DNA from: Spirogloea muscicola
Lineage: Eukaryota; Streptophyta; Zygnematophyceae; Spirogloeales; Spirogloeaceae
NCBI GenBank assembly: GCA_009602725.1
Contig: WELB01000002.1
Span: forward strand, 1,832,445-1,888,270
Direction: 5' to 3'
Length of the DNA stretch: 55,826 bases
Made by a program: the position numbers and the translations under genes. Positions within the stretch are counted from its first letter, which is position 1; each line of letters starts with the position of its first letter. The notes under the pieces were generated by a model. That model had not been told where the DNA came from and searched no databases. It saw only the letters and a program-made list of their open reading frames with translations. This document shows positions 19,415-26,813 of this stretch, one piece after another.

Positions 19415-22400
19415 ATGGACTGCCGAGACGGCGCAGCGCAACCGACGGACGACGACGCCGTGTGCAACGAGCCGGTGGACTTCCTCCACCTCTTCGACCG
19501 CAATGTAGCTGCCGCGCCTGCCAAGGTGGCATGCCTCTGGGTGGACGACAACGGCGATGCCGTCAAGGCTGTCACGTACGCCCAATTGCAGGTAAGATGC
19601 TTCTATATTAGAATTCAGCTCAGACAGACACCCTTGCCCCAAGCCTGTATTTGGTAGCAGGGGCTCTCTGCACATGGTCAGGCAAGAAAGAGCTACAAGT
19701 CCACCTCATGGTTGACCCATGATGCTCATTGTAGTGCACTTGACCTCCTCCCAGCTCCTTCTTGTCACAAAGACCTATATGTATGGGAGAATCCATTCTA
19801 TGTGCAGACCACCTCCTTGGACATCAGTCACGCTCTGCTGGCAAGATGGGGCGCAAAACCCGGCGACAGGGTGGTGTTGATTTATCCCCCAGGCCTGGAG
19901 TTTCTGGAGGCGTTCCTTGCCTGCCTAAGATCTGGTCAGATGTCACATCTCACCCAACTGCCATCTTCTGAGTAGCCTGGCGTAGGCAGCCTGCATGCGA
20001 TATAATTGCTCCTTGTAATGACCTGGGCCTCCTCGAGCTCCCTTCTGCTCATCACGCTTCCCATTGCTGACACGCTTTTACTGAGTGGGCCCTGAGCTGC
20101 TCAGATTGCGACTTCTTCGCAATAATAATGCACCTAAGAAGTTCGCATGTACAATTGCTTGACCCTTCTAGCTGCTCTTCATGTCATTAGCCGCTTCCAT
20201 TGTATAAGAAGATAATACGGCATTGTGATATGCATGGGCGAAGTGGTGTTGACGTACTTTTATAACCCAGCTTGCCATGTCGTTGCACGTTCTGCAGGTA
20301 TTATTGCTGTGCCGGTCTACCCCCCAAATCCCTCCAGCCTATCTGTAGATATTCCCAAACTTCGACGGGTTGTAAAAGATGCTGGCGCTTTGCTGATACT
20401 GACATCCCATGCTTATAGTCGTCTACGCAAGCTCACAAGGCTTCTCCACCGCTGGCCCGGCAGAAAGTGGAGATCGACCGACAACGTGAAGGTTGGACTT
20501 GTACCTTTTGAAAATGCACTCTATCGCTCATCAGAAGCTACAATGTGTTTATCACTTTCTTGAGGAAGAGATGATTTTAGCAAATCGAATGGAGTTGCTA
20601 GAGTCTCAGCATAAAGAGCAACTTCGCCTTGACATTTAGTGATGTACCTTAATACACGAACTTCACTCAGCTTGCAAGACCATTGGGTCGTACATGGTGG
20701 TGCTTGCAGAGGTCCCCGGTTGTCGGAGCAGCAAAGGGGCTGACGGAGCATCGAGTTGGCGGATACGCATTCCTCCAATACACGAGCGGCTCAACGGGCG
20801 AGCCAAAGGGCGTTGTGATCAGCTGGCAGGGCATTGCACACAACACGTATGCAATCCGCAGGTGCGATCTTGGCAGCAGCGCTCTTTCAGTGCCCGTACG
20901 GGATTAATGTCGGACGTTTGAAGCGGAGATTGTCAATGCTCATGTTTGGCAGCAACCCTCAGCGGACGCATGTGACTATGCAGCTAGCGCTACTTGCATC
21001 CCAATATTCTGGGTGATCACACCTCGCTTGATGCAGTGTATATGTTGGTGTCGAGCTAATCAATAGAGAAAGAACGAGTAAGAGGAGTCTGAGTCAGATC
21101 GTATCAGCCTAAAATGATGATGGTGCACCATTTTGCAGGACATTAAGGGTACGAGCAAGCAGTCGTATCTTCAGTTGGCTTCCACAGTACCACGACATGG
21201 GCTTGATTGTTGCATACCTGAACACCCTTAGGTAATCTCATGCTTCACTTTTCAAACATCATCGCGCTTCCCGGTTCATAGCACTCAAGGCGCCAGGGGC
21301 CTCCTCCAGTATCTCAAATATATATATTTGCCACTTGCAAAAACAGACCCCTGTACCAAATTGCTGTGCCTCATCTTTGACAGGATCTGCTCGAAACCAC
21401 TTTTGGTTTGCATCTCATGGGGCCTATCGTGATTTCCTACCATGCCTGTTGCAACGACTTAGTTGAGTGTTGCAGCTGGCATCTGTGAGAACAGCGCGGG
21501 GGCTGGAGGGGTGTACATGTCGCCTGCAGCTTTCATCAAGCAACCAAACCTGTGGCTGGCACTTCTGACTAAATATCGATCGACTCACACCTTCTCTCCC
21601 AACTTCGGACTAGAGCTGTGTGTCCGAAAATTCGACTCCGGGTCAGCTGCGCCCTACAACCCACAGTTGCATAGTAGCACAAAGCGCCTCCGTACTTAGC
21701 AATGAATCTTAATTGCTCGCCCCTACTTTTGGGCTGGCAATTGGAAAGTACCCGATTTTGTGAAGCTTACGTACTAACTTATCTTGCAGTCTATTTCAAT
21801 CTTACCTGGTCGCTCTTTCTGTTGTTCAGCCGTTTTGCAGATGGCAGCTTGGACCTATCATCACTGCAATGTCTGTTGAATGGAGCCGAGCCTATTCGGG
21901 AGGACACCATAGCTCGATTCAACAATGCCTTCAAACCGTATGGCTGGAAGGTATGATGAGGATCTGATCTACAATCACATTCCGGGTCCCCCGGAGCTTG
22001 CTAGTGCCTGCTCTGTCTGGACATGTCAAACAGATCCTCGCAAGTGCATTGTCACTGTTTGCCTGAGGCAGCTGCGCATGTGAGTACATGCGAATGTAGC
22101 CTGTCTGTAATACTCTGCTTCTCCTCGCACAGCCCAGCAGCTTGAGCACGTCCTACGGCTTGGCAGAGCACACTGTTGGAGTAAGCGCCTGGGGTACGAA
22201 GACGACAAGCAGATGCTCCACGGAAAGGACCTGCAAGGTAGGCTTACGTCTCCACTGTGAAGGGCTTTCAAGAGCTTGTCTGGATATGGTTTGCAGACCA
22301 AATTTTGGAGCATCTCATAGCTGATCTGTACCATAACCAAAACTCTTTCAGTAACACCAAAACTTTCGCAGGATCTCGACGTCCTCACTTTGTCACAATC

Positions 22401-25400: not shown

Positions 25401-26813
25401 GCTGCTTGGACTGCGGCCCAATGTCAACAGGGTCATGCTGCACATGTTGGGCTGTTACGCCGGCGTCACTGGCCTGCGGATCAGCAAGGACCTTGCCGAG
25501 AACAATGCGGGTGCCCGGGTCCTGTTTGTCTGCTGCGAGCTCAACAGCCTGACGTTTCAGGTCCAAGGAGATTGATTGCTGGTCAACCTAGTCATTTCAC
25601 CGGGCTCGAACGCAGCCTTGCTATTGTATTGCATGTCTCATCCTTCCTGTAGGAGTACTGAAACTTGCGATCCATTAATCTGCTGCAGTCTCCTGATGAC
25701 GACATGCCAGACAACATTGTCACGGCAGCTCTCTTTGGAGATGGGGCAGCTGCAGTAGTCATTGGAGTTGGAGCCAAGGTGAGTGGACGTACTCTCACGA
25801 CAGGCACTTCAGCTGCAGATGTACAGCACTGTACACAACAGGACAACCTTAAATGTGCCTATACCCTGCCAGTTCAAGGATGGCAAATGGTTTCATCCTC
25901 CACAATCTGACTTGCGTTTTGCCTACATGTTCTTCTGCTCTGATTGTGATTGCCACTGCTGATCCTGGTTTAAGCAGCCGCTTGACCTGCTGTTGACAAA
26001 ATATTGTGCCGCCTTACCTTCTGATGCTGCTGCACTTGCGTCCGAGTGCATGCTAGGCTGGCGAGGCAAAGCCCATGTTTGAGATCACGCAGACTTCGGA
26101 GCTATTCCTGCCAGACACGGAGGACTGCATCAAGGGCGAGCTCAATGACTCAGGCCTCCTCGTGCACCTATCCAAGGAGGTACGCAAGAGCATAAGACAG
26201 TGCTGCACTCGAAATCAGAAGCCTCAAGTTGCAACCACCTCAGGTCTGCTAGTATGTAACATTCCCTTGCAGTATGATGAGTGTATTCCATGTTTCTTAA
26301 TGTAGTTGTTATCAGCCGCTCGAATTTGCAATCCATGTACGTGAGTGCTCCCGCAGGTGCCGTTGCTGCTCGGGCAGCCAACCCGGGACCACTGTGCGGA
26401 GCTGCTCGGTGGCGTGGGCGTGCACTTTGATGACATCTTCTGGGCTGTGCACCCCGGTGGCCCCGCCATCCTGGACGTGATTGAGCGCCGCTGCCAGCTA
26501 AACTGCGACCAGCTACGCTCCAGCAGGTGCACTGGCTTCACCCACACTTGGCGACCACCCTTAGCAGAGATTGTATTTCAGAGGGCTTCATATCATCTCA
26601 AGCACGCTGCACCACCCCTGTTGGCGACCATGCAGGGCGGTTCTGGACGAGTTCGGCAACATGTCAAGTGCCTCTGTGCTCTTCGTACTTGACAAGATCT
26701 GGCAAGAGTCGAGAAAGTCGAGTGGCGATCGCAGCACTCAGCTGCAATGGGGCCTCGCCCTTGGCTTCGGGCCGGGCATAACAATTGAGGCCGCGTTGAT
26801 GCGACGCTTATAG
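19415..26813 (+). CDS. Fused fatty acyl-AMP ligase - acyl carrier - type III polyketide synthase
   Basis: About 22 exons encode roughly 1075 residues. Domain 1 (19415-23757) is a fatty acyl-AMP ligase: '[13 protein letters not shown]' (20773-20811), '[12 protein letters not shown]', 'YMSPAAF', '[10 protein letters not shown]', 'LLNGAEPIR', '[10 protein letters not shown]', '[11 protein letters not shown]', 'FLRTGDLG', '[17 protein letters not shown]' and the C-terminal Lys in 'KTTSGKIRR'. Domain 2 (23982-24191, finishing in the next exon) is an acyl carrier domain with '[11 protein letters not shown]' at the phosphopantetheine-Ser position. Domain 3 (from 24329) is a chalcone-synthase-type PKS: '[12 protein letters not shown]', Cys in 'LGCYAGV', '[11 protein letters not shown]', His in '[10 protein letters not shown]', Asn in 'EFGNMSSAS' and 'GFGPG'. 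The Cys-His-Asn triad is intact. The likely job is to activate a fatty acid, tether it and extend it to an alkyl-pyrone, resorcinol or phloroglucinol. Exon borders around 24617-25102 remain unresolved. An in-frame extension from 19088 is possible. Confidence 0.88.

Follow-up and report, generated by a model that had tools for sequence, protein, structure and literature searches.

Introduction

Type III polyketide synthases (PKSs) are, in the textbook account, free-standing enzymes that are primed by coenzyme A (CoA) thioesters. The Steely enzymes StlA and StlB of Dictyostelium depart from this scheme in that an acyl-supplying part, a fatty acid synthase (FAS)/type I PKS that builds the starter, lies upstream of the type III PKS and is fused to it; according to PMC9489281, Steely enzymes are unreported outside slime moulds. 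Here, a gene of the zygnematophyte alga Spirogloea muscicola is described in which a fatty acyl-AMP ligase (FAAL), a carrier-like domain and a type III PKS are very probably joined in one protein. The gene lies in a 55,826-nucleotide stretch of contig WELB01000002.1 (GenBank assembly GCA_009602725.1, positions 1,832,445 to 1,888,270), hereafter the window. Its FAAL would activate a ready-made acid, whereas the upstream part of the Steely enzymes makes its own starter. The type III domain itself is like that of the plant chalcone synthase (CHS)-type PKSs and of the 2'-oxoalkylresorcinol synthases (ORS) of mosses and charophytes, which differ in being free-standing and CoA-primed.

The closest functional precedent, judged by title, is the work of Hayashi et al. 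from 2011, in which a FAAL reportedly takes part when a type III PKS of Myxococcus xanthus produces alkylresorcylic acid. The FAAL, the carrier and the PKS of this bacterium are presumably separate proteins, whereas the S. muscicola parts would form one eukaryotic polypeptide. A further comparison is offered by the cylindrocyclophane-type gene sets of cyanobacteria, the AMP-binding enzyme of which, CylA, we take to be a FAAL. In these sets CylA and the acyl carrier protein (ACP) CylB start the chain and the type III PKS CylI makes the alkyl-resorcinol, while mksC, which is paired with mksG, joins an AMP-binding enzyme to an ACP (PMC8086630). Such sets consist of separate proteins with type I PKSs between them, whereas the S. 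muscicola type III PKS lies in the same chain and no type I PKS domain was matched there. Bacterial FAAL-ACP didomains and plant FAAL-like proteins likewise carry a FAAL directly followed by a carrier (PMC8460268); in section 10 of that paper a fusion to a type III PKS is not named, and "type III" occurs in its main text only in a reference title.

Gene model and conservation in three copies

The gene occupies positions 19415 to 26813 of the forward strand and was rebuilt from reading frames and splice sites as 22 exons, from the ATG at 19415 to the stop codon ending at 26813. The exon bounds were drafted from frames and splice sites and then corrected against two further copies in the same genome, and the joins were splice-scored. 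Depending on whether the FAAL and the carrier exons are joined at 23757/23982 or at 23823/23982, the joined exons comprise 3276 nt (1091 aa) or 3342 nt (1113 aa), and the only stop codon is the terminal one; residue numbers refer to the 1091-aa version. All 21 introns have GT-AG borders in the window gene as well as in both other copies, in which the exons follow in the same order. The in-frame exon chain that had been proposed for this region from the letters alone (the original prediction) is thus real and confirmed.

The genome searches covered a 153-Mb assembly of 471 contigs, in which the window lies on the contig numbered C2. Exons of type III PKSs were found at five loci (seven matches), on C2, C118, C397, C271 and C274. 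C118 and C397 each carry the whole FAAL-carrier-PKS exon chain in the same order, embedded in blocks of about 83-88% DNA identity that are shared with the window and extend over about 20 kb (C118, bounded by the stretch compared) and about 15 kb (C397, where the contig ends). The C118 copy has an uninterrupted frame of 1092 or 1114 aa. In the C397 copy a 1-nt deletion in an A run of exon 15, near KYKRIC, disrupts the frame, which stops after residue 777 or 799, so that two of the three copies are fully open; an assembly or sequencing error and a decaying copy cannot be told apart as causes of this deletion.

The ratio of nonsynonymous to synonymous substitution rates (dN/dS) over the whole chain is 0.14 between the window and C118 and 0.17 both between the window and C397 and between C118 and C397. 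By part, it amounts to 0.12-0.17 for the FAAL, 0.20-0.36 for the carrier, 0.26-0.78 for the inter-domain linker and 0.09-0.18 for the PKS. Third codon positions account for 187 of the 289 variable exon sites, and the fraction of variable sites is 0.088 in exons against 0.143-0.353 in the 21 introns. The three syntenic copies are under purifying selection. An assembly artefact as the source of the fusion was rejected, since it occurs in matching synteny on three different contigs, and a recent pseudogene was rejected on the dN/dS values, save for the 1-nt deletion in C397.

The remaining loci, C271 and C274, each hold a spliced type III PKS gene that stands alone; that they might be FAAL fusions was rejected, since a tblastn search with the FAAL-carrier protein gave no match within 10 kb around each. 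Elsewhere in the genome, GRAS-family exons gave 92 exon-level matches, many of them in threes, and exons of the SQS/PSY type (phytoene/squalene synthase) one set of three. Taken with the threefold syntenic duplication, these triples mark a triplicated genome. Duplication or triplication has been invoked for S. muscicola (PMC12866927). A chlorophyte of the Botryococcus or Coccomyxa kind as the host was rejected on the GRAS matches, since chlorophytes are not known to have GRAS genes; the 14 genomes that served as controls were prokaryotes. The green alga thus looks like a streptophyte of the zygnematophyte group.

Domain content

The order FAAL, carrier, type III PKS with an intact Cys-His-Asn triad, which the original prediction had read from motifs, is supported by Pfam matches and by the residue check. 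Eight Pfam families were matched on the 1091-aa protein: AMP-binding (2e-62, residues 27-425), Chal_sti_synt_N (7e-75, 716-932) and Chal_sti_synt_C (5e-42, 945-1090) are clear, a DIP2-like AMP C-domain was found at 8e-8, PP-binding is borderline, and three related families fall inside the type III domain. Type I ketosynthase, acyltransferase, dehydratase, enoylreductase and ketoreductase domains are not among the eight, and ACP_syn_III was matched twice, each time within the type III domain.

For the FAAL part (residues 1-599), the highest-scoring solved structures are 7r7e, labelled polyketide synthase (332.7 bits), and 3kxw, labelled saframycin Mx1 synthetase B (310.6 bits), both of which we take to be FAAL structures although their labels say otherwise. 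They are followed by structures labelled as AMP ligases (FadD23 with 245.2, FadD32 with 238.9 and 3pbk with 179.8 bits), while some adenylation domains of nonribosomal peptide synthetases (NRPSs) and PKSs reach 130-133 bits. Among the best 60 of 152 entries, five of which are counted as FAAL-type although their labels do not say so, structures labelled as CoA ligases, including 4CL and feruloyl-CoA synthetase, score at most 89.1 bits against 180-333 bits for the FAAL type. Seven of the nine top-scoring NCBIfam families are fatty acyl-AMP ligases, and the top family is an NRPS/PKS model (353.8 bits) matched over the first domain of that model. Judged by spacing from SWLPxYHDM, with EcFAAL itself not in the alignment, the residues at the EcFAAL positions W224, P226, M231, P259 and F279 are kept; in EcFAAL, W224, M231 and F279 are reported to block the CoA pocket and the FAAL-specific helix spans T252-R258 (PMC8460268). 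The stretch PAAFIKQ resembles PVAFLQR of 7r7e and was assigned to this helix by analogy, and the region from SYGLAE to IVDP, where a FAAL-specific insertion would lie, looks shorter than in 7r7e in the alignment. In sequence, the N-terminal domain resembles FAALs more than it does acyl-CoA ligases.

The carrier was scored on its own as well, where PP-binding reaches 21.0 bits in the window and 19.7 bits in the C118 copy, with a cut-off of 20.8. Its closest solved relatives are FAS carriers (E 0.018 or worse). The LGLSS motif around the predicted phosphopantetheine serine is kept in all three copies. The phosphopantetheinyl transferase family PF01648 has four matches in the genome, so that the carrier could in principle be armed.

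Over the C-terminal 370 residues, identity amounts to 49% with the CHS-like 3awj, 46% with the chalcone synthase 6dx7 and 41% with 6gw3, and to at most 33.5% with plasmid-borne bacterial enzymes among the 30 of 184 records listed. Cys870, His1008, Asn1041 and GFGPG are all present, and both Pfam halves are matched. The CHS residue numbers used for comparison are 164, 303, 336, 197, 256, 265, 338, 55, 58 and 62. The residues of CHS are kept at positions 197, 256 and 338, position 265 is Val and not Phe, and the position of Lys62, which together with Lys55 and Arg58 we take to form the three basic CoA-contact residues of CHS, is Ala. As a guess, an alkyl starter and products of tri- to tetraketide size would fit a pocket that is CHS-like but has Val at position 265. 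The residues diagnostic of ORS are Gln218, Val/Ala277 and Ala286 in PpORS numbering (PMC11316218), which were converted to CHS positions 197, 256 and 265 by an offset of 21 set in this analysis; Thr, Gly and Val were read there, which are not the ORS residues. At the equated positions, Gln, Ala and Ala were read by eye in the stand-alone PKS on C274.

Proposed mechanism and alternative functions

These features point, with fair though not high confidence, to a self-loading enzyme, in which the FAAL loads a fatty acid onto the carrier of its own chain and the type III PKS extends it. The FAAL would convert a free fatty acid and ATP to an acyl-adenylate and reject CoA, and the acyl group would be passed to the phosphopantetheine arm of the carrier and from there to the active-site cysteine of the C-terminal plant-type PKS. 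The PKS would then add about two to three malonyl-CoA units, and cyclisation would give an alkyl-pyrone, an alkyl-resorcinol or resorcylic acid, or an acyl-phloroglucinol lipid. Splicing as one mRNA, modification of the carrier, the order of transfer, chain length and product are what we infer from the domains and their residues. ATP activation, a carrier arm of the protein's own and priming free of acyl-CoA had already been put forward in the original prediction, and would agree with the domain anatomy.

Several observations weigh against this scheme. PRK07768, an NCBIfam family named as a CoA ligase, scores 274.6 bits on the FAAL part, and none of the best 25 NCBIfam families reaches its curated cut-off. 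With the full protein, PP-binding scores 16.1 bits, below the cut-off of 20.8, the carrier is not listed by the genome-wide PF00550 search, and Ser642 at the phosphopantetheine-serine position (LGLSSL) is preceded by Ser and not by the usual Asp. In the PKS, the CoA-contact residues Lys55 and Arg58 are kept, and the enzyme can therefore probably still use CoA thioesters. Relatives of the same architecture were found neither in viral contigs (no match in one pattern search, 101 matches in a second search) nor in genome contigs (21 pattern matches in one search, 103 matches in another). Among plasmids, the full protein has matches in 1211 records, in none of which do these extend over more than 80% of it in one place; in the 30 listed they are confined to the FAAL part.

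A fused protein may be considered in which the PKS is not supplied by the carrier and uses ordinary acyl-CoA starters, while the FAAL-carrier part is degenerate or acts in another pathway. The borderline carrier score and the Ser-Ser motif would fit such a protein, as would the CoA starters taken by the plant relatives of the PKS, which is established for CHS, and the case of StlB, which is cut late in development and whose freed CHS domain alone supports CDF-1 formation (PMC9489281). Both the FAAL and the carrier are under purifying selection, however, as the dN/dS values given above for these parts indicate, and LGLSS is kept in every copy, so that this alternative to the self-loading enzyme appears improbable.

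FAAL-carrier join

The self-loading enzyme presupposes that the FAAL, the carrier and the PKS form a single protein, which is regarded as highly probable. The frame runs through both inter-domain joins with GT-AG borders conserved in all three copies. Of the two joins named in the original prediction, 24191/24329 holds; 23757/23982 is in frame as well, but its donor has the lowest score of the 21. Either 23757/23982 or 23823/23982 may be the exact FAAL-carrier join.

The evidence at this junction is in part unfavourable to a fusion. The join 23757/23982 sums to 0.4 bits, its donor (-2.8 bits) being the worst in the gene. The best-scoring join at the junction, 23823/23982, reaches 6.8 bits and is outscored by 18 of the 20 other introns (range -1.4 to 18.0 bits). 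Between the FAAL and the carrier, 14 stop-free in-frame joins are possible, eight of which are kept in both copies, and having one is therefore weak evidence for fusion. The added 66 nt of the longer version (23758-23823) vary at 12 sites (0.182), distributed as 5, 4 and 3 over the codon positions, which is not coding-like; the preference for 23823/23982 is weakened by this lack of a third-position excess. Moreover, the FAAL-carrier intron (23758-23981) is the least variable of the 21, with 0.143 of its sites variable (0.127 from 23824) and 0.173 in the next. A 3' and a 5' untranslated region sharing this interval would also explain such low variation; the 3' flank of the gene itself likewise reaches about 92% identity.

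A division into two proteins would follow if the FAAL frame, which is readable to a TGA at 23863-23865, ended there and a carrier-PKS protein began at the ATG at 23988 (MESEEPRP), the two being encoded by adjacent genes or by one dicistronic mRNA and still cooperating in trans. The distance of only 122 bp between this in-frame stop and ATG, the low scores of both candidate joins and the unusual, 3'-flank-like conservation of the sequence between the FAAL and the carrier are in its favour, and dicistronic genes in two chlorophytes have median inter-ORF spacings of 183 and 40 nt (PMC11291117). In the same chlorophytes, however, the first open reading frame (ORF1) of such genes has a median length of 357 nt in one and 291 nt in the other and contains few start codons, whereas ORF1 would here be longer than 1.8 kb and its first 1797 nt contain 26 ATG triplets; independent colinear neighbours are spaced there by a median of 3415 and 2518 nt, these being values for chlorophytes and not for zygnematophytes (PMC11291117). 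Within the read-through stretch (23758-23865), third codon positions make up 6 of 16 variable sites, compared with 187 of 289 in the exons (p 0.024), which argues against a translated FAAL tail, and the C118 copy has two additional nucleotides in this stretch and hence a different tail. With the in-frame GT-AG joins conserved in all three copies, and with the published S. muscicola models listed as fusions (PMC11316218), two separate proteins are considered unlikely.

For the single self-loading protein, a starter other than a fatty acid is very improbable: an adenylating domain acting on an aromatic or other non-fatty acid, which would make the protein a self-loading chalcone- or stilbene-type synthase without need for 4CL, would fit the CHS residues kept at positions 197, 256 and 338 and the CHS-type nearest solved relatives of the PKS, but 4CL and feruloyl-CoA synthetase labels stay at or below 89.1 bits against 180-333 bits for the FAAL type among the best 60 of 152 entries, and the change of Phe265 to Val goes towards the long-chain enzyme ORS, which has Ala.

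Gene coordinates and neighbourhood

The coordinates of the exons, of the shared blocks and of the neighbouring features are collected in Table 1. An exon 4 start at 20671 was dropped, as both copies differ by one base there; exon 6 starts at 21468 or 21476 and an extra exon at 24732-24774 were rejected because C118 and C397 break the frame or lack exon-like conservation. A scan for bacterial promoters and terminators, which is ill-suited to a eukaryote, gave signals at or below chance.

Upstream of the fusion gene and divergent to it, inside the block common with C118, lies a cytochrome P450 exon (1.6e-9), and it is possible that this P450 would act as a tailoring enzyme for the fusion product. 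Two minus-strand open reading frames beside it had no Pfam match. Downstream, exons of a bacterial-type glycyl-tRNA synthetase (glyQ/glyS-type) follow, first the alpha and then the beta part, perhaps as one organelle-type gene. The window starts with at least 120 A and contains an N run at about 13.2-13.5 kb, so that assembly ends or gaps are close by.

Table 1. Coordinates of the fusion gene, its surroundings and the shared blocks (window positions unless a contig is named)
Feature	Coordinates	Strand	Remarks
Open reading frame	16922-17236	-	no Pfam match
Cytochrome P450 exon	17413-17877	-	
Open reading frame	17884-18414	-	no Pfam match
Exon 1	19415-19591	+	start codon, FAAL N-terminus; conserved in both copies
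Exon 2	19808-19934	+	FAAL
Exon 3	20298-20491	+	FAAL, AVPVYPPNP
Exon 4	20710-20861	+	FAAL ATP-binding motif
Exon 5	21139-21231	+	FAAL motif, CoA-pocket residues checked
Exon 6	21495-21641	+	FAAL-specific-helix region and PNF; acceptor score second-lowest in gene
Exon 7	21830-21950	+	FAAL, NGAEPIR
Exon 8	22133-22237	+	FAAL, SYGLAEHT
Exon 9	22416-22526	+	FAAL, IVDPQ
Exon 10	22697-22867	+	FAAL, EGEIWV...GYW...RTGDLG
Exon 11	23023-23171	+	FAAL C-terminal subdomain
Exon 12	23283-23448	+	FAAL C-terminal subdomain
Exon 13	23674-23757	+	FAAL end, KTTSGKIRR; donor 23757 weakest in gene
Possible exon 13 extension	23758-23823	+	22-residue linker if donor is 23823; in frame in three copies
Exon 14	23982-24191	+	carrier-like domain, LGLSSL (predicted phosphopantetheine serine)
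Exon 15	24329-24617	+	inter-domain linker, then type III PKS start
Exon 16	24808-24914	+	type III PKS; alignment to CHS-type enzymes and copies
Exon 17	25042-25102	+	type III PKS
Exon 18	25310-25560	+	type III PKS, nucleophilic Cys (LGCYAG)
Exon 19	25689-25778	+	type III PKS, ALFGDGAAA
Exon 20	26057-26179	+	type III PKS, Val at CHS Phe265 position; lowest acceptor score in gene
Exon 21	26357-26526	+	type III PKS, catalytic His (AVHPGGP)
Exon 22	26636-26813	+	type III PKS, catalytic Asn (GNMSSA), GFGPG, stop codon
Glycyl-tRNA synthetase exon	27867-28112	+	glyQ/glyS-type, alpha part
Glycyl-tRNA synthetase exon	32272-32826	+	glyQ/glyS-type, beta part
Syntenic block on C118	C118:27001-47000		compared with window 12.5-33.7 kb
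Syntenic block on C397	C397:37001-51752		compared with window 12.5-33.7 kb

Discussion

For S. muscicola, Table 1 of PMC11316218 marks three type III PKSs as fusions and lists two ORS. The fusions are flagged there by an asterisk, and the partner, the carrier and the mechanism are not described; six type III PKSs of stramenopiles or chromerids are flagged as fusion proteins as well. The existence of type III PKS fusions is therefore not new. The census obtained here, three fused and two stand-alone PKS loci, equals the one in that table, and the three flagged S. muscicola fusions are probably the same three genes, matched by census and not by sequence. In the titles and abstract openings found in the open-access PMC literature, a FAAL-carrier-type III PKS fusion is not described. 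The statement of the original prediction that it knew of no well-described enzyme with exactly this order in a green alga thus stands for the open-access literature as far as descriptions go, but has to be qualified by the earlier flagging of the S. muscicola fusions. What looks new, as far as this literature shows, is the architecture and the likely mechanism. The idea that such fusions explain the odd-length PKS models of chlorophytes (PMC8133574) was dropped, as none of the five chlorophyte entries in Table 1 of PMC11316218 is flagged as a fusion.

It is tentatively suggested, with some doubt, that a lineage adjacent to the land plants joined a bacterial- or plant-type FAAL-carrier loader to a plant-type PKS, separately from the origin of the Steely enzymes. 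Free fatty acids, and not acyl-CoAs, would then prime an alkyl-resorcinol or alkyl-pyrone pathway, perhaps one that makes surface or desiccation lipids, beside the ordinary ORS-like enzymes that stand alone. If this is true, the S. muscicola protein would be a second eukaryotic solution for a carrier-fed type III PKS beside Steely, driven by ATP and contained in one polypeptide, and would allow alkyl-polyketide lipids to be made from free fatty acids by one compact enzyme. It would also bear on the surface lipids that predate the plant cuticle and sporopollenin.

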